This document shows positions 23,694 to 63,892 of a stretch of DNA of 64,000 bases, in pieces. The position numbers and the translations under genes were made by a program. The stretch comes from Clostridium sp. TW13 (GTDB lineage: Bacteria; Bacillota; Clostridia; Clostridiales; Clostridiaceae). The stretch spans positions 930,001 through 994,000 of the forward strand of contig NZ_BROD01000001.1 of assembly GCF_024345225.1 (NCBI RefSeq). The letters are read 5' to 3'. Each line of letters opens with the position of its first letter. Within the stretch, counting starts at the first letter, position 1. The notes under the pieces are model-generated. The model was not told where the DNA came from, did no database searches, and saw only the letters and a program-made list of their open reading frames with translations.

Positions 23694-24051
23694 TGCGAGT
23701 AAGCCAGGCAATCGCTGCTAAGTTTTACTTAGGAGAGGAAAGTCCGAGCTCCACAGGGCAGGGTGCTGGTTAATGGCCAGTCGAGGTGACTCGAAGGAAA
23801 GTGCAACAGAGATATACCACCTTAAGGTTCACCAGAAACCTTAGGGAAAGGGTGGAAAGGTGAGGTAAGAGCTCACCAGCATATAGGTGACTATATGGCT
23901 ATGTAAACCCCACTTGGAGCAAGACCGAATAGAGGGGCATTATGGGATTGCCCGTCCCGCCTCCGGGTGTGTCGCTTGAGCCTATTGGCAACGATAGGCC
24001 TAGATAGATGATTGCTTAATACAGAACTCGGCTTATACGACTTATCTCGCA
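23694..24051 (+). ncRNA. rnpB: RNase P RNA (M1 RNA), bacterial type A-like
   Basis: This is the catalytic RNA of RNase P, which matures tRNA 5' ends. The conserved core GAGGAAAGTCCGAGCTCCAC and GTGCAACAGAGATA, and near the 3' end ACAGAACTCGGCTTA, are all present. P1 pairs GCGAG and TAAG at the 5' end with CTTATCTCGC at the 3' end. The about 358-nt length is normal. The final 33 bases are the prophage attachment core, so the present 3' end is partly supplied by the phage, yet P1 pairing is kept. Confidence 0.97.
24018..24050 (+). mobile_element. attL, prophage left attachment core inside rnpB
   Basis: The 33-bp core starts AATACAGAACTCGGCTTATA and ends GACTTATCTCGC. It recurs at 63850-63881 with a single missing base (the C at 24038). 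It forms the 3' end of rnpB. The integrase gene begins 30 bp beyond it. Integration into a structural RNA gene with 3'-end restoration is typical of tyrosine integrases. Confidence 0.93.
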
Positions 24052-24054
24052 ACA

Positions 24055-24089
24055 ATATAGCTAGTTTAACGACTAGCTATTATTTTTTT
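24055..24089 (+). terminator. Prophage-supplied terminator for rnpB
   Basis: ATAGCTAGT (24057-24065) pairs with ACTAGCTAT (24072-24080), followed by TATTTTTTT. It lies on the phage side of attL, so integration gives rnpB a new terminator. Its T-tract overlaps the stop codon and last lysine codons of the convergent integrase gene. Confidence 0.85.
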
Positions 24090-25246
24090 GCCACCAATTT
24101 GCCACCAAAAATATTATTTAATTTTTCTGTAGCATTTTTTTGCATCTCTTTATTAACATGAGCGTAAATATTTAAAGTTGTATTAATATCCTCATGCCCT
24201 AGTCTTGTTTGCACTGTTTTAAAATCCACACCTTGTTGAATTAATAAAGTCGCATTAGTATGTCTTAAGTCATGAAAACGAATAGTTTTATCTATTCCAG
24301 CAGCAGCTACAACCTTTTTTATTTTATTAGTGTAGTACATAGGGTGAATGTATTTTCCATTATCCCACCTCATGACTAGATCATAACTTTTATCATTAAA
24401 AATATTATTTTCATAGAACTCTCCGTATTCATTTTTTTTGAATTCTTGCCTTTTATTTAATTGAGTTAACATCTCTAAAAGTTCATTTGAAACATAAATA
24501 GTTCTGGTACTTCCTTTTGTTTTTGTAGTTTCCATGTAAGTGTGTCCGTAGTTATAAATTAAATTATTGTGAATGGATACCACATTTTCTCCGTAGCTTA
24601 TATCTTCCCAAGTCAACCCAGCTAATTCTCCACGCCTAAGACCTAGTTCTAAGGTTAATCTAAAAGCTACATAAAACATATAATCATATTCATTTTCTAA
24701 ATCTAAAGTTTTAATTAATAATGGTATTTCTTCAACTTCTAATACATCGGTTTGTTTTTTATTTCTCTGTGGTCGCTCAACGCCTTTGCAGGGATTGTTT
24801 TGTATCAGATGCAGTTTTATACTTCTTTCAAATATGGAATTACAAAGCGTATATATTCCTTGCAAAGTAGTATCGCTAATATTATTCTTTTTTATATCTA
24901 GTAACATTCGTTCTATATCTAAAGCGGTTATTTTATTTATTTCTTTAAAACCTAAATAGGGAATCAAATATTTTTTATTCATTTCTTTATATCTACTATA
25001 TGTCGTTATTTTTCTAAGAGGTTTTATATATTCCTCTAACCATTGTGTAGATACACTTGTAAAGTTAACTTTAGTAGGCTCAATATATCCTTTTTCAAAT
25101 TCGCTTATTGCATCACGGAGAGCCTTTTCGGCTTCTTTTTTTGTTTTAAAACCTCCTTTTTCTTTCTTTTTACGTTTCCCGTCGATTAATCCTAGGTTAA
25201 AATAGTAACTCCATGTGTCACCACGTTTCCTTACAGCACCTTTCAT
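24080..25246 (-). CDS. int: Tyrosine-family site-specific integrase
   Basis: This 388-residue recombinase integrates the phage into rnpB. It has an N-terminal arm-binding domain (KRGDTWSYYFNLGLIDGKRK, 6-50), a SAM-like core-binding domain (about 65-155) and a C-terminal catalytic domain. The catalytic residues are Arg in LELGLRRGELAGL, H-x-x-R in FHDLRHTNATLL, His in RLGHEDINTTL and Tyr in NIYAHV. ATG 25246 lies directly after GGAGGAAAA; ten upstream in-frame residues (to 25276) overlap the ribosome site. A terminator-like hairpin separates it from the small gene upstream. Confidence 0.95.
   Translation of the reverse strand: MKGAVRKRGDTWSYYFNLGLIDGKRKKKEKGGFKTKKEAEKALRDAISEFEKGYIEPTKVNFTSVSTQWLEEYIKPLRKITTYSRYKEMNKKYLIPYLGFKEINKITALDIERMLLDIKKNNISDTTLQGIYTLCNSIFERSIKLHLIQNNPCKGVERPQRNKKQTDVLEVEEIPLLIKTLDLENEYDYMFYVAFRLTLELGLRRGELAGLTWEDISYGENVVSIHNNLIYNYGHTYMETTKTKGSTRTIYVSNELLEMLTQLNKRQEFKKNEYGEFYENNIFNDKSYDLVMRWDNGKYIHPMYYTNKIKKVVAAAGIDKTIRFHDLRHTNATLLIQQGVDFKTVQTRLGHEDINTTLNIYAHVNKEMQKNATEKLNNIFGGKLVAKK
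24088..24108. repeat. Left pair of integrase arm-type sites
   Basis: TTGCCACCAA occurs at 24088-24097 and 24099-24108, 11 bp apart, inside the 3' end of the integrase gene and about 40 bp from the attL core. The same paired arrangement recurs near attR (63715-63735). This is the pattern of arm-binding sites for a tyrosine integrase N-terminal domain. Confidence 0.75.
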
Positions 25247-25266
25247 TTTTCCTCCTTCTTGGAAAT

Positions 25267-25293
25267 AAAAAGCCACTATTTAGTGGCTTTTTC
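25267..25293. terminator. Terminator-like hairpin between the RHH-like gene and int
   Basis: AAAAAGCCACTA and TAGTGGCTTTTT pair around two bases, overlapping the stop codon of the small minus-strand gene. Read in the integrase direction it has a T-run after it, so int would be expressed only by read-through, antitermination or another promoter. Confidence 0.7.
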
Positions 25294-29809: not shown

Positions 29810-30859
29810 ATGATAAAAGGATTTAAAGTATTTGAAAATGATTGGACATGTAGGGAATATCAATACGAGGTAGGTAAGACTTTTAAACATGAAGGAAATA
29901 TCGAAATGTGTGGAGCAGGATTTCACTTTTGCCAAAAGGCTAGTGATTGTTTTAATTACTACAGTTTTAACAGCAACAACAAAGTCGCAGAAGTTGAAGC
30001 AGTAGGACATGTAGAAACTAGAGAGGATAAATCTGTTACAGATGAATTGAGAATAGTTAGAGAAATAAGCTGGCAAGAGTTATTAACTATAGTTAACACT
30101 GGCAAAGATTGCACAGGCTTAAATAATAGTGGTAACAGGAATAGTGGTGACTGGAATAGTGGTAACAGGAATAGTGGTGACAGGAATAGTGGTAACAGGA
30201 ATAGTGGTAACGGGAATAGTGGTAACGGGAATAGTGGTGACTGGAATAGTGGTAACAGGAATAGTGGTGACAGGAATAGTGGTAACAGGAATAGTGGTAA
30301 CGGGAATAGTGGTAACGGGAATAGTGGTAACAGGAATAGTGGTGACAGGAATAGTGGTGACTGGAATAGTGGTGACTGGAATAGTGGTGACAGGAATAGT
30401 GGTGACTGGAATAGTGGTAACAGGAATAGTGGTAACGGGAATAGTGGTAACGGGAATAGTGGTAACAGGAATAGTGGTGACAGGAATAGTGGTGACTGGA
30501 ATAGCACTAACCGATCTAGCAATGTTTTTTCTACCAAACAAGAAAAACTTAAGATATTTGATAAAGAAACAGATATGACATTCGACGCATGGAGAAACAG
30601 CGAAGCTTGCAGTATATTAGCTTGGAATTTTAACTCTACAGTTTGGATATATGAAGAAAATATGACAGACGAAGAAAAAGAGAAACATCCTTCTTATAAA
30701 ACTACAGGCGGTTATCTTAAAGAGTTTACATTTAGAGAAGCATGCAAAAATATGTGGGGCTGCCTAACCACAAGAGAAAAAGAAGTTATTGAAAATATAC
30801 CTAACTTTGATAATGATAAATTCAAATCAATAACAGGTATAGAGGTAGAAAAAGAATGA
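29810..30859 (+). CDS. DUF7666-like protein with a pentapeptide (NSGNx) minisatellite domain
   Basis: This 349-residue protein has an N-terminal domain common in phage proteins (KGFKVFENDWTCREYQYEVG, with CGAGFHFC; residues 1-100). Residues 106-230 are 25 perfect-register pentapeptides NSG[N/D][R/G/W], like PF01469-type beta-solenoids of PPE-MPTR proteins. A conserved C-terminal part with WIYEENMTDEEKEKHPSYKT follows. The start follows AGGAGG. Its stop overlaps the sigma factor start (ATGA). Function is unknown; the solenoid may be a length-variable spacer or binding surface. Confidence 0.8.
   Translation: MIKGFKVFENDWTCREYQYEVGKTFKHEGNIEMCGAGFHFCQKASDCFNYYSFNSNNKVAEVEAVGHVETREDKSVTDELRIVREISWQELLTIVNTGKDCTGLNNSGNRNSGDWNSGNRNSGDRNSGNRNSGNGNSGNGNSGDWNSGNRNSGDRNSGNRNSGNGNSGNGNSGNRNSGDRNSGDWNSGDWNSGDRNSGDWNSGNRNSGNGNSGNGNSGNRNSGDRNSGDWNSTNRSSNVFSTKQEKLKIFDKETDMTFDAWRNSEACSILAWNFNSTVWIYEENMTDEEKEKHPSYKTTGGYLKEFTFREACKNMWGCLTTREKEVIENIPNFDNDKFKSITGIEVEKE
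30125..30514 (+). repeat. 15-bp coding minisatellite (25 units plus one degenerate)
   Basis: The unit AATAGTGGTAACAGG (variants GAC for AAC and GGG or TGG for AGG) is repeated 25 times without indels from 30125 to 30499, followed by a degenerate copy. Units 2-7 and 8-13 are an exact higher-order duplication (DW-NR-DR-NR-NG-NG) of 90 bp. Every reading frame on both strands stays open, producing artefactual ORFs. Confidence 0.97.
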
Positions 30860-59308: not shown

Positions 59309-59314
59309 AAGCAG

Positions 59315-59356
59315 GGTAGTATGCAGATTAATTTCTGTATACTACCTCTTTTTTTA
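59315..59356 (+). terminator. Strong terminator ending the late operon
   Basis: GGTAGTATGCAGA pairs with TCTGTATACTACC (one wobble) around a 6-base loop, followed by TCTTTTTTT. It closes the structural-lysis transcript. Confidence 0.92.
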
Positions 59357-59644: not shown

Positions 59645-59851
59645 ATGGTTAAAAATAGATTATTACAAATAAGATTAAGTTTAGGGTATAAGAAACAAAA
59701 AGACTTTGCGGATTTTTTAGGAGTTGCGCAAGCTAATTATAATAAGTGGGAAAATAATAGTAGCCAACCAGGTATAGAATTTGGGTTAAAAGTTGCTGGA
59801 AAATTAGATATGACTTTTGAAAGTATATTTTATTTAGAGGATGAAGGGTAA
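59645..59851 (+). CDS. Xre-family HTH regulator of the right-end module
   Basis: This 68-residue protein is a single HTH domain (KQKDFADFLGVAQANYNKWE). AGGAGGG lies about 8 bases upstream and a TTGACA -35 is nearby. It starts the accessory module and may act as its own repressor, separate from the phage CI-like repressor. Confidence 0.82.
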   Translation: MVKNRLLQIRLSLGYKKQKDFADFLGVAQANYNKWENNSSQPGIEFGLKVAGKLDMTFESIFYLEDEG

Positions 59852-59967
59852 AAACTTCGTTCTTTTCTTTTTTACATAAAAAATAATAAATTTATAAAAA
59901 AATGAGAAACTTTAAAGAAAATTAAGCATATATTAAACCATAAAGCAAAGCAAGAGAGGTTGAGCGT

Positions 59968-60102
59968 ATGGCGGTAGTTATTCCGGTATCTTTCAAAAAC
60001 AAAGAGAAGTATTTACTAGAATACGTAAAAGATAAAGATTTTAGTTATTATGTTAAGCAGCTAATAAAAAAAGATATGAAAAGTAAAGAGAAAGAAATAT
60101 AA
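59968..60102 (+). CDS. Small RHH-like protein
   Basis: This 44-residue protein (MAVVIPVSFKNKEKYLLEYV; FSYYVKQLIKKDM) shows a beta strand followed by two helices as in CopG-type plasmid copy-number regulators and some plasmid partition/replication regulators. GAGAGG precedes the start. It fits the plasmid-like character of the module. Confidence 0.6.
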   Translation: MAVVIPVSFKNKEKYLLEYVKDKDFSYYVKQLIKKDMKSKEKEI

Positions 60103-60120
60103 ATTTTAGGAGGTATTTAC

Positions 60121-60501
60121 ATGGAAAATAGTAAAGAAGAATACACACAATTTTCTACAGAAATTATAGTTGAAGGTGAAGAAAGTGTACCATTTTGCAT
60201 AAAAGTTGTACTTACTAGAGAAAACGGCATAAAGAATCAATTTTCAGTTTATACACCTACGGATCTTTTAAGGTTTTTTAAAGCAATCATAGCTGAAGGT
60301 AAAGAAAAATTATATCGTTGTATTGATTGTTTTTTTGAAAGAGATTATCGTATTCTTTCCATAGGACAGTTACATTTTGACTATGTTGATGAATATAATA
60401 GCTTTCTTATAGCTTTTGGTGATAGTACATTTGTTGACGAGATTAATAGTCATCTTGAAGAAATTTTAACTACAAACATTTTGGAAGGAGAAAAGTTATG
60501 A
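60121..60501 (+). CDS. Hypothetical acidic protein of the right-end module
   Basis: This 126-residue acidic protein (FSTEIIVEGEESVPFCIKVV; LFSY-like motifs absent; RDYRILSIGQLHFDYVDEYN) appears alpha/beta. AGGAGG precedes the start and it overlaps the next gene by 4 bases. Not recognised. Confidence 0.65.
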   Translation: MENSKEEYTQFSTEIIVEGEESVPFCIKVVLTRENGIKNQFSVYTPTDLLRFFKAIIAEGKEKLYRCIDCFFERDYRILSIGQLHFDYVDEYNSFLIAFGDSTFVDEINSHLEEILTTNILEGEKL

Positions 60502-60779
60502 ATAGCAGATATGAAAAAGATGAAATAGACATTAATAAAACAATAATTAAAGGAGTTGCAATTACAGTAGTATCATTAGTTACTATAAAGTTCATGCCAC
60601 TTTTAGGTATAAATGCAGCTATAGGAAATGGTGTAACTTGGATTACTGGAGGGACAAGAGTTGCAGATGGCTTTATGATCCCAAACTATTTTAAAGCATT
60701 AGTAGGCTTAATGTTTGGAGTGGATGTTTACTGTGTTGTGAAGAAAGATAATAGCAATTTTAAGAAGGTTAGAAGATGA
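60498..60779 (+). CDS. Membrane protein of the right-end module
   Basis: This 93-residue protein has two hydrophobic segments (IIKGVAITVVSLVTIKFMPL; YFKALVGLMFGVDVYCVV). It overlaps both neighbours by 4 bases, so it is translated in one coupled block with the FtsK-like gene. It might anchor that ATPase at the membrane. Not recognised. Confidence 0.65.
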   Translation: MNSRYEKDEIDINKTIIKGVAITVVSLVTIKFMPLLGINAAIGNGVTWITGGTRVADGFMIPNYFKALVGLMFGVDVYCVVKKDNSNFKKVRR

Positions 60780-62056
60780 TACCAGCTATTGCATTAGTGC
60801 CAGTTGCAGTTGGGTTAGGGAGTTATGCTAGTTACTTATATAAAAGTACAGCATATATTAGAAGGTTTAAGGAAGATTTTAATAACATTATGATAGCTAC
60901 AGGAATAGAAAACAAAAACCATGAAACATTTAAAATAGTAGATATTCATTCTAAAAATTATGGATTAGAGGTATTTTTAAATGTACCAGATGGCTTATCT
61001 ATAGAACATTTGAATAATAAGCTGAATATTTTACAAGATAATTTTAATGGAATTGTAGAGTTAGAAAAAGATAGATTTAAAAATTATATACAACTAGATT
61101 TAATAACTAAAGATATAGCCAAGTATCAATTTACGCCAGTTAAAGCTAAAGAAAGTGAACTGTCATTAGGCAAGGACTATAAAGGACGAGATTTCCTTTT
61201 AGATGTAAATAAAAACCCACATTTAGGTATATTCGGGACTACTGGAAGTGGCAAAAGTTTCTTACTAGCAAGTATTTTAAGCAACCTTTTATACAATTCT
61301 GCTGATATGGTAGACATTTATTTAAATCAAGTTGTAAAGAGCGAACTAGCTTGTTTTAGGGATTGCAAGGGCGTTAAATTCACAGCAACTACATTTTTAG
61401 AAGTAGATTTAATATTAGATAAGATACGCCTAATATTGGAGAATAGAAGTGAGTTATTCGATGTATACGGAATTAGAAATATAACTCAATACAATAAGCA
61501 TTATCCTAAGCGGAAATTAAAACGAATATATTTCGTCATAGAAGAAATTAGTTTCTTTATGGAGGAAGGATTTCAGTATATATGGAATAACTTATTATTA
61601 ATTGCCAAAGCTGGGAGAGCATTGGGTATACATCTTATTTGCGCTAGTCAGAGAGCGGTGGCAACCGAAATTAATCCAACATTTAAGCAACAACTAACTA
61701 AAGTTTGCTTACAAATGTCTTCTTTAGATTCAGTTAATATATTAGGCGTAGGTGATGCCAAAGACCTTAAAGAAAGAGAAATTCTAATTTTAACAACTAA
61801 GGGATTTATAAGGACGAGCTCACCATGGATAGACGAAGATTATAGGATCCTGCATAATTTCATTAAAGAAATTCACATTCCCAACCATGATAAAAAAGAG
61901 CCTACCAAACCAGTTTTATTATTATCTAGTCCGGCTACAAAGAAAAAGGACAGTAAAGATATTACCATTGTAGATGTACCATTTAAAGAAGAACCCCCAA
62001 AAGATAAAAAGAAACGCAAAGGCGAAATAGATATTGACGAATGGAGTGATTTCTAA
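60776..62056 (+). CDS. FtsK/SpoIIIE (TcpA-like) DNA translocase ATPase
   Basis: This 426-residue protein has an N-terminal hydrophobic stretch (AIALVPVAVGLGSYASYLY), then an FtsK-type motor domain with Walker A GIFGTTGSGKSFLLA, Walker B IYFVIEEISFF and ICASQRAVATEINP ([14 protein letters not shown] region). A lysine- and aspartate-rich tail follows. The length and architecture fit TcpA/Tcp-coupling or plasmid/ICE FtsK-like proteins rather than chromosomal FtsK. It stands just before a replication-relaxation-like gene. ATGA overlap with the previous gene. Confidence 0.85.
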   Translation: MIPAIALVPVAVGLGSYASYLYKSTAYIRRFKEDFNNIMIATGIENKNHETFKIVDIHSKNYGLEVFLNVPDGLSIEHLNNKLNILQDNFNGIVELEKDRFKNYIQLDLITKDIAKYQFTPVKAKESELSLGKDYKGRDFLLDVNKNPHLGIFGTTGSGKSFLLASILSNLLYNSADMVDIYLNQVVKSELACFRDCKGVKFTATTFLEVDLILDKIRLILENRSELFDVYGIRNITQYNKHYPKRKLKRIYFVIEEISFFMEEGFQYIWNNLLLIAKAGRALGIHLICASQRAVATEINPTFKQQLTKVCLQMSSLDSVNILGVGDAKDLKEREILILTTKGFIRTSSPWIDEDYRILHNFIKEIHIPNHDKKEPTKPVLLLSSPATKKKDSKDITIVDVPFKEEPPKDKKKRKGEIDIDEWSDF

Positions 62057-62643
62057 TGCTTACAGAACGTGACACAAAGGTTTTAAAATGGATAGAAGAT
62101 AATAAGGTTATTACTATAGAAGAAGCTAGATACATGTTTTTTGAGGGCAATTATAAGGTATGTTGGAGAAGGCTAGACCAATTAGAACAAATGGAGATTT
62201 TAAAGAGTTATAAGAATAAATACGATGGTAAAAAAGTTTATTACCAAGATAAGAAAATCAGCAGTCATGATTTATTTATTCATTACTTTTTGGGAGAAAT
62301 TTATAAAAGAGGTGGAGAATTACTGCAAATAAAGTATCAGCCAAGATACCTAAATGACCTCATTCGCCCCGATAGCTTTTTAGCTTTTAAATGGAACAAT
62401 AGAGTATTTTTAATACTATTAGAAGTGGATTACACTCATTTCACTGATACAAGCAAATTCATTCTTTATGAAAAGATGTTCAAAGAGGACTCTCTAGGAA
62501 CAATAAAAAAATTCGGAACATTCCCCAAACTTTTAATAGTAAGACCAAATCTAAATACTACTAGATACAGTAGTAAAAACTTTGAGGTGATCTATACCAC
62601 GCTTAATTATAAAAATTTGGACGAGTTCTTGTTTATTACCTAA
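62056..62643 (+). CDS. Replication-relaxation-like (PF13814-type) protein
   Basis: This 195-residue protein has an N-terminal winged helix (LTERDTKVLKWIEDNKVITI; NYKVCWRRLDQLEQMEILKS) and a C-terminal core with LLEVDYTHFTDTSKFILYEK and FGTFPKLLIVRPNL, which resembles the Replic_Relax family found beside FtsK-like ATPases in plasmids and ICEs. It starts in the FtsK-like stop (TAATG). Whether it initiates replication, nicks or only binds DNA is not known. Confidence 0.68.
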   Translation: MLTERDTKVLKWIEDNKVITIEEARYMFFEGNYKVCWRRLDQLEQMEILKSYKNKYDGKKVYYQDKKISSHDLFIHYFLGEIYKRGGELLQIKYQPRYLNDLIRPDSFLAFKWNNRVFLILLEVDYTHFTDTSKFILYEKMFKEDSLGTIKKFGTFPKLLIVRPNLNTTRYSSKNFEVIYTTLNYKNLDEFLFIT

Positions 62644-62877
62644 TTACTTATTATTATATTCCTTAAATCCTATATTCCCTTATTATTATCAAGAAACAAA
62701 AATGACTTATTTACTAAGTTTGAAGGGTGCACTTTGTAGATAATATAAAAAAATATCTCCATAGTTTTCTACACCCTTTTCTACACATTAATCTACAGTT
62801 ATTTCTACATACCACTATAGAAAAAACTCACACAAAACACAAGATTAAAATTATACAAAACAGGAGCGTGATTAACT
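62644..62877. other. Non-coding region with origin-like repeats
   Basis: This 234-bp gap after the replication-relaxation-like gene contains four CTACA-centred 12-bp units (62766-62812), one inverted TGTAGA near 62735, and AT-rich flanks. An ORF drawn through it (62727-62948) merely translates the repeat as FLHPFLHINLQLFLHTT and lacks a ribosome site, so I treat it as non-coding. Confidence 0.55.
62765..62812 (+). repeat. Four 12-bp-phased CTACA repeats (iteron-like)
   Basis: CTACA begins at 62769, 62781, 62793 and 62805, each exactly 12 bp apart, with unit TTTTCTACACCC and close variants. An inverted copy lies about 30 bp upstream. Regular phasing beside a replication-type gene suggests iterons of an origin, or an operator for the module regulator. 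Confidence 0.65.
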
Positions 62878-63267
62878 ATGGAGACAATATCCATACTAAT
62901 AATATTATGTACAGTAATAAAAATAATATACACTTGGTGTATAAATAAACTTTTTGCTAGTACCCCAGCATTTGCAGAGATCAGCGCAGAGCAGTACATT
63001 GATTATGTTAATTCTAAAACATTACGTAGCTGCGATGTAGAATGTGCCTACGCTCAAACTCGTAATCTATTCAATCAGGCTTTAAAATCTGGTGAATTAG
63101 ATAGGGGTAAAATACTTGCTGTTAAATTATACTTAGAGAAACATGTCAAGAAGTACCAAACACAAAGGAAATTCGAGAATGATGCTCACAAAATCTATGC
63201 GATGTTAAAGGCGGCTGACATTAAGGTTAGGGACTTTAAAGTCGTAGATTCAATTATTTTTAAATAA
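62878..63267 (+). CDS. Hypothetical protein with N-terminal membrane helix
   Basis: This 129-residue protein has an N-terminal hydrophobic helix (TISILIILCTVIKIIYTWC) and a helical charged rest (CAYAQTRNLFNQALKSGELD). Ribosome site GGAGCG is weak. It follows the repeat region and ends in a terminator. Not recognised. Confidence 0.65.
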   Translation: METISILIILCTVIKIIYTWCINKLFASTPAFAEISAEQYIDYVNSKTLRSCDVECAYAQTRNLFNQALKSGELDRGKILAVKLYLEKHVKKYQTQRKFENDAHKIYAMLKAADIKVRDFKVVDSIIFK

Positions 63268-63274
63268 CTAGATT

Positions 63275-63316
63275 GACTTAGGAATTACAGTGGTATGTTT
63301 CCTAAGTCTTTTTTTA
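63275..63316 (+). terminator. Intrinsic terminator
   Basis: GACTTAGGA pairs with TCCTAAGTC around a 16-base loop, followed by T8. It ends the right-end module transcript. Confidence 0.85.
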
Positions 63317-63375
63317 CATAATAAGGAAGGATTTTTAAATAGAATATAGAAATGTACTCAAGGAGGTGGAAAATT

Positions 63376-63525
63376 ATGAAAAAGGTGAAAATGATAAATG
63401 GATTCAAAGTTATTGAAATAGAGAAGGAAGTTGACGAGAAAACACTTGAAGAAAACAGAAGAAAAGCACTTCAAGAATTATACGATATCTTCTATAATAA
63501 AGATACGGAGAACTCTATAAAATAA
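63376..63525 (+). CDS. Small hypothetical protein, near attR
   Basis: This 49-residue protein (MKKVKMINGFKVIEIEKEVD) has a short strand-rich start and a charged helix. AGGAGGTGG precedes the ATG. Not recognised; a good ribosome site supports translation. Confidence 0.6.
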   Translation: MKKVKMINGFKVIEIEKEVDEKTLEENRRKALQELYDIFYNKDTENSIK

Positions 63526-63540
63526 AAGGGGTGAAGAAAT

Positions 63541-63684
63541 ATGGTTAAGGTGACTATAATAGAACCGGATATCACACAGGAAGAAAATGAAAGACGATTA
63601 GAAATTGTTAAACAAATACTTCAACAGATAGCAAATGAACCAAATGAACCAGATGAGCCTATAAAGAGCGGCAATAAAAAATGA
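63541..63684 (+). CDS. Small hypothetical protein, last gene before attR
   Basis: This 47-residue acidic protein (MVKVTIIEPDITQEENERRL) has a strand plus helix layout similar to the preceding small protein, suggesting an old duplication (both start with a K-V-x-x-I strand, then E-x-D-x-x-x-x-E-E/N-x-R-R). GGGGTG precedes the start. Function is unknown. Confidence 0.58.
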   Translation: MVKVTIIEPDITQEENERRLEIVKQILQQIANEPNEPDEPIKSGNKK

Positions 63685-63693
63685 CCTAATATA

Positions 63694-63735
63694 AAATTGG
63701 TGGCAAGTTTAATTTTGCCACCAATTTGCCACCAA
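63694..63735. repeat. Right arm-type integrase sites
   Basis: TTGCCACCAA occurs at 63715-63724 and 63726-63735 (11-bp step, as on the left), and inverted at 63697-63706. The inverted pair forms a perfect 13-bp palindrome arm AAATTGGTGGCAA/TTGCCACCAATTT. The recurrence at both prophage ends indicates arm sites bound by the integrase N-terminal domain. Confidence 0.75.
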
Positions 63736-63849: not shown

Positions 63850-63881
63850 AATACAGAACTCGGCTTATAGACTTATCTCGC
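63850..63881 (+). mobile_element. attR, prophage right attachment core
   Basis: AATACAGAACTCGGCTTATA then GACTTATCTCGC repeats the rnpB 3' end with one base less than attL. Beyond it the host sequence resumes with the likely original rnpB terminator. Confidence 0.93.
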
Positions 63882-63892
63882 TAACTTGATTG

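Follow-up and report, generated by a model that had tools for sequence, protein, structure and literature searches.

What a complete temperate phage does with a gene pair of plasmid type is the question raised by a prophage in the chromosome of Clostridium sp. TW13. The window, by which we mean the whole stretch of 64,000 nucleotides that was analysed (contig NZ_BROD01000001.1, positions 930001–994000), contains a module lying between the endolysin/amidase gene and the right attachment repeat (attR) of this prophage. The module encodes a helix–turn–helix (HTH) protein, a small ribbon–helix–helix (RHH)-like protein, two small proteins, a DNA-translocating ATPase and a Replic_Relax/MobC-like protein (RR), followed by a gap of 234 nt. 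FtsK genes paired with Replic_Relax genes are already known from annotations of phages and plasmids of Gram-positive bacteria; the parts of the reports considered here assign them to plasmid replication or segregation without testing this. The best explanation, to which we assign a probability of roughly 0.4, is that the module is a DNA-processing cassette of the plasmid or integrative mobilizable element (IME) type residing in a temperate phage, in which RR would act as a nickase and the ATPase as a motor, and which would serve mobilisation. Established here are the gene content of the module, the coupling of its genes, its recurrence as a unit, a conserved cis site, conserved acidic residues and the family resemblance of the proteins. 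The conserved cis site, a natural fusion of the two genes and the MobC-like nuclease layout of RR make the function directly testable.

The ATPase–RR pair and its downstream site

All features of the module described below are on the forward strand. The ATPase (426 amino acids; 60776–62056) matches FtsK_SpoIIIE (E = 1.4e-14) and PHROG 1358 (E = 1.2e-53), which bears out the TcpA/FtsK-like motor proposed in the initial annotation of this DNA. Its family profile matches the solved TcpA of pCW3 over residues 71–353 (E = 1.5e-33) and FtsK about equally well (E = 4.1e-33). The AlphaFold model of the ATPase (pLDDT 78.2) aligns best with the FtsK motor, with Z = 31.1 and an rmsd of 3.7 over 337 aligned residues; TcpA gives Z = 28.5–29.4 (rmsd 4.4–8.8, 323–328 aligned; 4.4 and 326 at the best Z of 29.4), HerA-type proteins give Z of about 15–19 and TrwB gives Z = 15.0 (rmsd 3.6, 204 aligned). 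The protein possesses a hydrophobic N-terminal helix.

The RR gene (62056–62643) overlaps the preceding ATPase gene and encodes 195 amino acids that comprise a winged helix and a nuclease-like domain. In the predicted model (pLDDT 90.5) the second domain has the order helix-strand-strand-strand-helix-strand; the winged helix resembles MexR (Z = 10.1, rmsd 1.5, 64 aligned; the VIA matches cover the winged helix only) and the best Foldseek matches of the second domain are to McrBC (E = 2.7e-3 and 3.1e-3). Asp106, Glu123, His128 and Pro157 are invariant across 20 RR sequences and Asp125 is present in most of them, with His128 close to the position of the lysine in the PD...ExE(...K) motif. PF13814 is matched at E ≤ 0.01 by 14 of the 20 members of this alignment (best 7.8e-10), and three RR proteins from phages and one from a Thermoanaerobacterium plasmid, all four more distantly related, exceed the cut-off of that family.

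This arrangement resembles that of the MobB–MobC system of the CloDF13 type (MOBC, PF13814), where the gene directly after that of the ATPase likewise overlaps it and encodes a winged-helix protein that has a PD...EV(E/D) motif. In a MOBC-typed plasmid the genes for the type IV coupling protein and MobC overlap in this order, and this MobC matches PF13814 at 1.7e-22. The relevant parts of three reports describe MobB as acting in relaxation as well as in coupling (PMC7431656), MOBC as related to restriction endonucleases (the hitcher-element survey PMC11389934) and MOBC relaxases as PD-(D/E)XK-like (PMC12857230). Unlike the CloDF13 system, in which MobB is VirD4-like (PF12696), the window has an FtsK/TcpA-like motor; MobC has a lysine where RR has a histidine nearby, RR stays below the Pfam cut-off that defines the family, and the module is carried by a tailed phage. 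The module is built like a relaxase-plus-coupling-protein unit.

Immediately after the RR gene comes the longest gap in the module (62644–62877), a non-coding region that is a candidate for an origin of transfer (oriT)-like cis site. It contains four copies of TCTACA at a spacing of exactly 12 bp (62768–62809, starting at 62768, 62780, 62792 and 62804), the iteron-like repeats that had been noticed at the outset; only three places in the window contain four exact copies of a hexamer that are evenly spaced, at an interval of 7–40. The fourth copy overlaps an ACATAYY motif, here ACATACC (62807–62813), and two ACAAAAC boxes follow 23 bp apart (62832–62861; boxes at 62832–62838 and 62855–62861), with similar boxes in relatives. 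In most Clostridiaceae relatives the region 3′ of RR has the same order: either 12-bp repeats or an inverted repeat come first, then ACATAYY, then ACAAAA boxes; this conservation had not been noted in the initial annotation.

At 20 of 30 loci the extended motif ACATAYYMY occurs in the 300 bp that follow RR, compared with a mean of 2.2 in shuffled sequences (maximum 8 in 500), a count that is partly circular because the motif was first noticed in part of the loci later counted. It was found at none of these loci on the opposite strand and about 1.0 times in random windows. Loci repeating the same contigs or genomes were left out of the count, and L084 was dropped as redundant from the 31 entered. 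The ten Clostridiaceae-type loci missing ACATAYYMY are L063, L065, L066, L067, L068, L069, L070, L071, L074 and L093, although L066 and L070 keep ACATAYY. Among the 20 loci with the motif, 13 group with the window (group A) and have an identity of 0.458 at lag 12, against 0.353 for the 99.9th percentile of the highest lag in 1000 shuffles; the remaining seven (group B) have no 12-bp period, and several of them place a hairpin directly before the motif. Inverted-repeat arms average 7.5 at the 21 loci measured and 6.4 in shuffles (Wilcoxon p = 1.8e-4), the loci being related and thus not independent, and those without the motif or with fewer than 40 nt before it being left out. A universal site 3′ of RR was dropped as an idea, given the ten loci just named and four Bacillus/Geobacillus-type phages, which had no part in shaping the motif and do not have it at that place. 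Orphan sites were also sought: the 15-base pattern was met in 72 viral stretches, and RR or FtsK was near it only in contigs already known to carry RR.

Recurrence in phages and plasmids

The initial annotation proposed asking whether the block moves as a unit, with scattered unrelated genes in relatives as the outcome that would speak against it. Among 206 genomes of the same family, RR is detected at E ≤ 1e-4 in 30 and the ATPase at E ≤ 1e-20 in 24, and the ATPase lies within 1.5 kb of RR at 28 of 30 RR loci, two further RR matches without a locus falling outside this neighbourhood count; scattered genes are not what was seen. Decayed copies occur as well: in L066 the ATPase gene is split by a stop codon, and in L072 RR is truncated.

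The carriers include predicted viral contigs, Bacillus- and Geobacillus-type phages, circular phage-plasmids and plasmids, a distribution in keeping with the plasmid-like or integrative and conjugative element (ICE)-like nature that had been suggested for the block. In the Bacillus- and Geobacillus-type phages the module comes soon after the amidase gene and, in three of the four, precedes an integrase or recombinase gene. phi18-2, SpaA1, GBSV1 and PK3.5, as well as pBM400, share with the window the order small protein, FtsK, RR, and in the first four the module is also placed after the amidase; in contrast to the window, their RR belongs to another subgroup and, in these four phages, no ACATAYY element is found just downstream of it. 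Bacillus Tyroviruses and the phages Novomoskovsk and Bolokhovo likewise have a phage-borne FtsK or type IV secretion system-like gene with Replic_Relax, for which the parts of PMC9703825 and PMC9658697 considered describe no cis site; the Thrax phages, unlike the window, are reported there to have ParM and three tyrosine recombinases.

One circular phage-plasmid carrier has a tail-sheath gene. The pair is also found on a circular phage-plasmid of Clostridiaceae 14S0207, on plasmids with ParM or ParA/RHH and on pBM400. A circular phage genome of 35.4 kb from Paraclostridium bifermentans (L184), annotated as a plasmid, has ParM adjoining FtsK–RR. Of 147 plasmid records in which a Bacillus-type RR occurs, 123 belong to Priestia, and some records hold two copies.

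In plasmid p1 of Sarcina sp. JB2 (L182, 19860–21737), the FtsK motor and RR form a single open reading frame (ORF) of 625 amino acids in which the winged helix of RR is located after the motor. The winged-helix gamma domain of FtsK likewise follows its motor. A small RHH-like protein directly precedes the fusion, and after it come an inverted repeat, GTACATACC and ACAAAA; the inverted repeat, in a plasmid that had no part in shaping the motif, has arms of 10, a loop of 31 and ends 5 nt before the motif. Sarcina p1 is typed non-mobilizable, as are all five records found with the RR of the window. The module is a real and widespread cassette of phages and plasmids, for which we propose a function.

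Mobilisation and its alternatives

What we infer from these observations is nicking, repeat binding, translocation and mobilisation. RR would nick site-specifically, like MobC: its winged helix would read the 12-bp repeats (the hairpin in relatives) in the gap that follows the RR gene, and its nuclease-like domain would make the cut near the ACATAYY motif. The N-terminal helix of the ATPase, and probably also the small membrane protein encoded before it, would keep the motor at the membrane, and the motor would take over the nicked circle and pump it. The most likely purpose would be to mobilise the excised, circular prophage through the conjugation channel of another element, in the manner of IMEs that have tcpA and a relaxase gene but no channel.

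Several features favour mobilisation: a layout like that of MobC, a partner resembling coupling proteins, the cis site, RHH-like small proteins and a gene order that is IME-like once the prophage is circular, when the tyrosine integrase gene (24080–25276, reverse strand; PHROG 1, E = 3.1e-82) becomes the neighbour of the module. The sections of PMC12857230 considered state that accessory relaxosome proteins are often RHH proteins and that the direct repeats bound by TraX of pAD1 lie away from nic. Streptococcal IMEs of the type tcpA-relaxase-xis-int offer a parallel in gene order, according to the portions of PMC5357655 used: IMEs carry tcpA adjoining a relaxase gene, near the integrase gene once circular and without channel genes, as in the window; in contrast, TcpA is there never paired with a PF13814/MobC relaxase, and the pair of the window sits in a complete phage. 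pCW3 has a coupling ATPase, TcpA, which the ATPase of the window resembles, but is a conjugative plasmid, not a phage, and its TcpM is described in PMC12857230, as far as that source was covered, as related to tyrosine recombinases. On pGIAK1, a Replic_Relax gene lies beside VirD4- and VirB4-like genes, and the part of PMC3756968 concerned terms the plasmid self-mobilizable. Among open-licence articles in PMC, no title or abstract opening dealt with a mobilisation role of a phage-borne Replic_Relax, relaxase or oriT cassette.

Besides the partial circularity of the motif count, several observations weigh against mobilisation. The Replic_Relax label given in the initial annotation is right, but the match of the window RR to PF13814 reaches only 17.4 bits (E = 0.005) against a cut-off of 25.3, and we make no claim of MOBC membership because of this shortfall; hhalign of RR with the MobC of the MOBC-typed plasmid is not significant (E = 0.18). 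The inverted repeat of the window itself is no better than chance (p = 0.50), and the ACATAYY element is missing just downstream of RR in the four Bacillus/Geobacillus-type phages. No canonical helper genes were seen in the genome: searches of it gave no MobP relaxase, no VirD4 C-terminal domain (TraG-D_C) and no VirB4-type ATPase (AAA_10) above cut-off. The VirB4-type channel genes of its own that would mark an ICE were thus not found; the layout of a putative IME (a relaxase or oriT candidate and its own integrase without a channel) fits, and the element is also a complete phage. VirD4-type genes occur in six of the 30 carriers and in 44 of the other 176 genomes, and a helper association was rejected for these genes. 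Company of ParM or ParA/RHH is frequent on plasmid carriers. The conjugative plasmid pGS18 (L207, 6995–8237) has a separate MobQ relaxase, and its RR-like gene adjoins CopG and ParM with no FtsK neighbour.

That no helper was seen and no VirD4 association found, together with the MobQ of pGS18 and the ParM/ParA company, makes plasmid-style maintenance a close rival of mobilisation. It is quite possible that the module maintains a circular form of the phage, either a phage-plasmid stage or the excised circle, with RR relaxing or resolving the circle at the repeat site, the motor moving copies across the septum at division or sporulation and partition genes being present in those elements that are always extrachromosomal. 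This would suit the pair on the circular phage-plasmids of Paraclostridium, where ParM adjoins RR, and of Clostridiaceae 14S0207, its presence on pBM400 and on plasmids with ParM or ParA/RHH, the large share of Priestia plasmids among the Bacillus-type records and the rank of the FtsK motor as top structural match; it also agrees with the reading of such genes as plasmid replication or segregation genes in the parts of PMC9703825, PMC9658697 and PMC8026635 considered. The window phage, however, is integrated in the RNase P RNA gene (rnpB) and has its own integrase, so that this copy is not the extrachromosomal prophage of a phage-plasmid, and scans of part of the window ORFs gave no ParA/ParM-type match. 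Asp106 and Glu123, moreover, are strictly conserved, which points to cleavage, an activity not required for partition.

The initial annotation favoured a second replication- or transfer-type system, and the replication part of this proposal has fared poorly. That RR starts theta or rolling-circle replication at the 12-bp repeats is improbable: the iteron-like repeats do adjoin its gene and the family name Replic_Relax points that way, but DnaD- and DnaC-like replication genes are already present in the phage, the block revealed no replication initiator, the predicted layout of RR is restriction-enzyme-like rather than Rep-like, and group B loci without iterons still keep the motif. Separate annotated replication initiators (Rep) are found on both Sarcina p1 and pMU3262, two plasmids with the FtsK–RR pair, and weaken the replication reading further. 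A nicking and translocation cassette, for either mobilisation or segregation, fits the evidence better. Least probable of all is defence or superinfection exclusion, in which a HerA/FtsK motor and a nuclease encoded in an accessory slot near attR would attack competing DNA: the slot between lysis genes and attachment site, the fold shared by FtsK and HerA and weak matches of PADLOC HerA models to the ATPase allow it, but RR has no PADLOC match, so that known defence families do not account for both partners, the motor is far closer to FtsK/TcpA than to HerA, and a gene-tied cis site and presence on many plasmids would be unexpected. The hitchhiking satellite or interference role also suggested for the block found no positive evidence with PADLOC.

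If the mobilisation reading is true, one element could leave its host either packaged in virions or, as naked DNA, by way of a helper's channel; prophages would thereby gain a second exit and typing tools would undercount mobilisable plasmids. The broader proposition that a mobilisation cassette, including an origin of transfer of its own, is hidden in several kinds of Firmicute temperate phage, and that the same cassette resides on plasmids typed non-mobilizable, is rather doubtful.

Accessory genes and the prophage

The ORFs of the module lie where they had first been placed. A terminator-like hairpin after the endolysin gene (59314–59347), as originally noted, forms its left border. Independent transcription of the unit finds no support in promoter-like sites, which are no commoner than in shuffles (21 against 26.6). 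The first gene encodes an XRE-type HTH protein of 68 amino acids (59645–59851), confirmed by HTH_3 at E = 6.7e-8, which is the probable regulator of the module; a similar HTH protein, possibly another repressor of the same element, is present in the 20-kb regions of 15 of 20 relatives. The CopG-like label of the next product, a putative RHH fold of 44 amino acids (59968–60102), is weaker than first stated: it has no Pfam match and matches only PHROGs of unknown function (PHROG 14312, E = 3.7e-8), and it recurs in four of those 20 regions. Neither of the two small proteins encoded between it and FtsK has a counterpart in any of them; these are an uncharacterised protein of 126 amino acids (60121–60501), also without a Pfam match, and a small membrane protein of 93 amino acids (60498–60779; hydrophobic stretch KD 2.11), whose gene overlaps that of the ATPase. 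A small hydrophobic protein stands at the same place, before FtsK, in most of 13 relatives inspected. Beyond the cis region, a membrane-anchored protein of 129 amino acids (62878–63267; KD 2.34 near the N-terminus) matches PHROG 20704 at E = 2e-9 and recurs in ten of the 20 regions, and two small ORFs of 57 (63352–63525) and 47 amino acids (63541–63684; PHROG 15837, E = 8.8e-7) are of uncertain membership in the module.

The carrier is a complete tailed prophage in a Clostridium-family chromosome, bounded by attachment repeats starting at 24018 and 63850, as the earlier claim of a complete phage with a DnaD-like initiator, loader and recombinase implied. Its early genes encode an integrase, a repressor, an antirepressor, ERF and DnaD- and DnaC-like proteins, and its structural and lysis genes a terminase, portal, head protease, capsid, tail proteins, tape measure and amidase. 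The left repeat is situated in the gene for RNase P RNA (Rfam RNaseP, 23696–24053), in its 3′ portion, and attR (63850–63890) is a copy of the 3′ end of rnpB, so that a near-identical gene end is retained by the right copy (24018–24055 versus 63850–63890). Direct repeats of TTTGCCACCAA at 24087 and 24098, beside the integrase end, and at 63714 and 63725, ahead of attR, flank the prophage and may be arm sites of the integrase. Early in the prophage, an ORF at 29810–30859 (PHROG 14105) contains a long array of tandem 15-bp repeats from roughly 30125 to 30454, and its product is possibly a variable-repeat protein.

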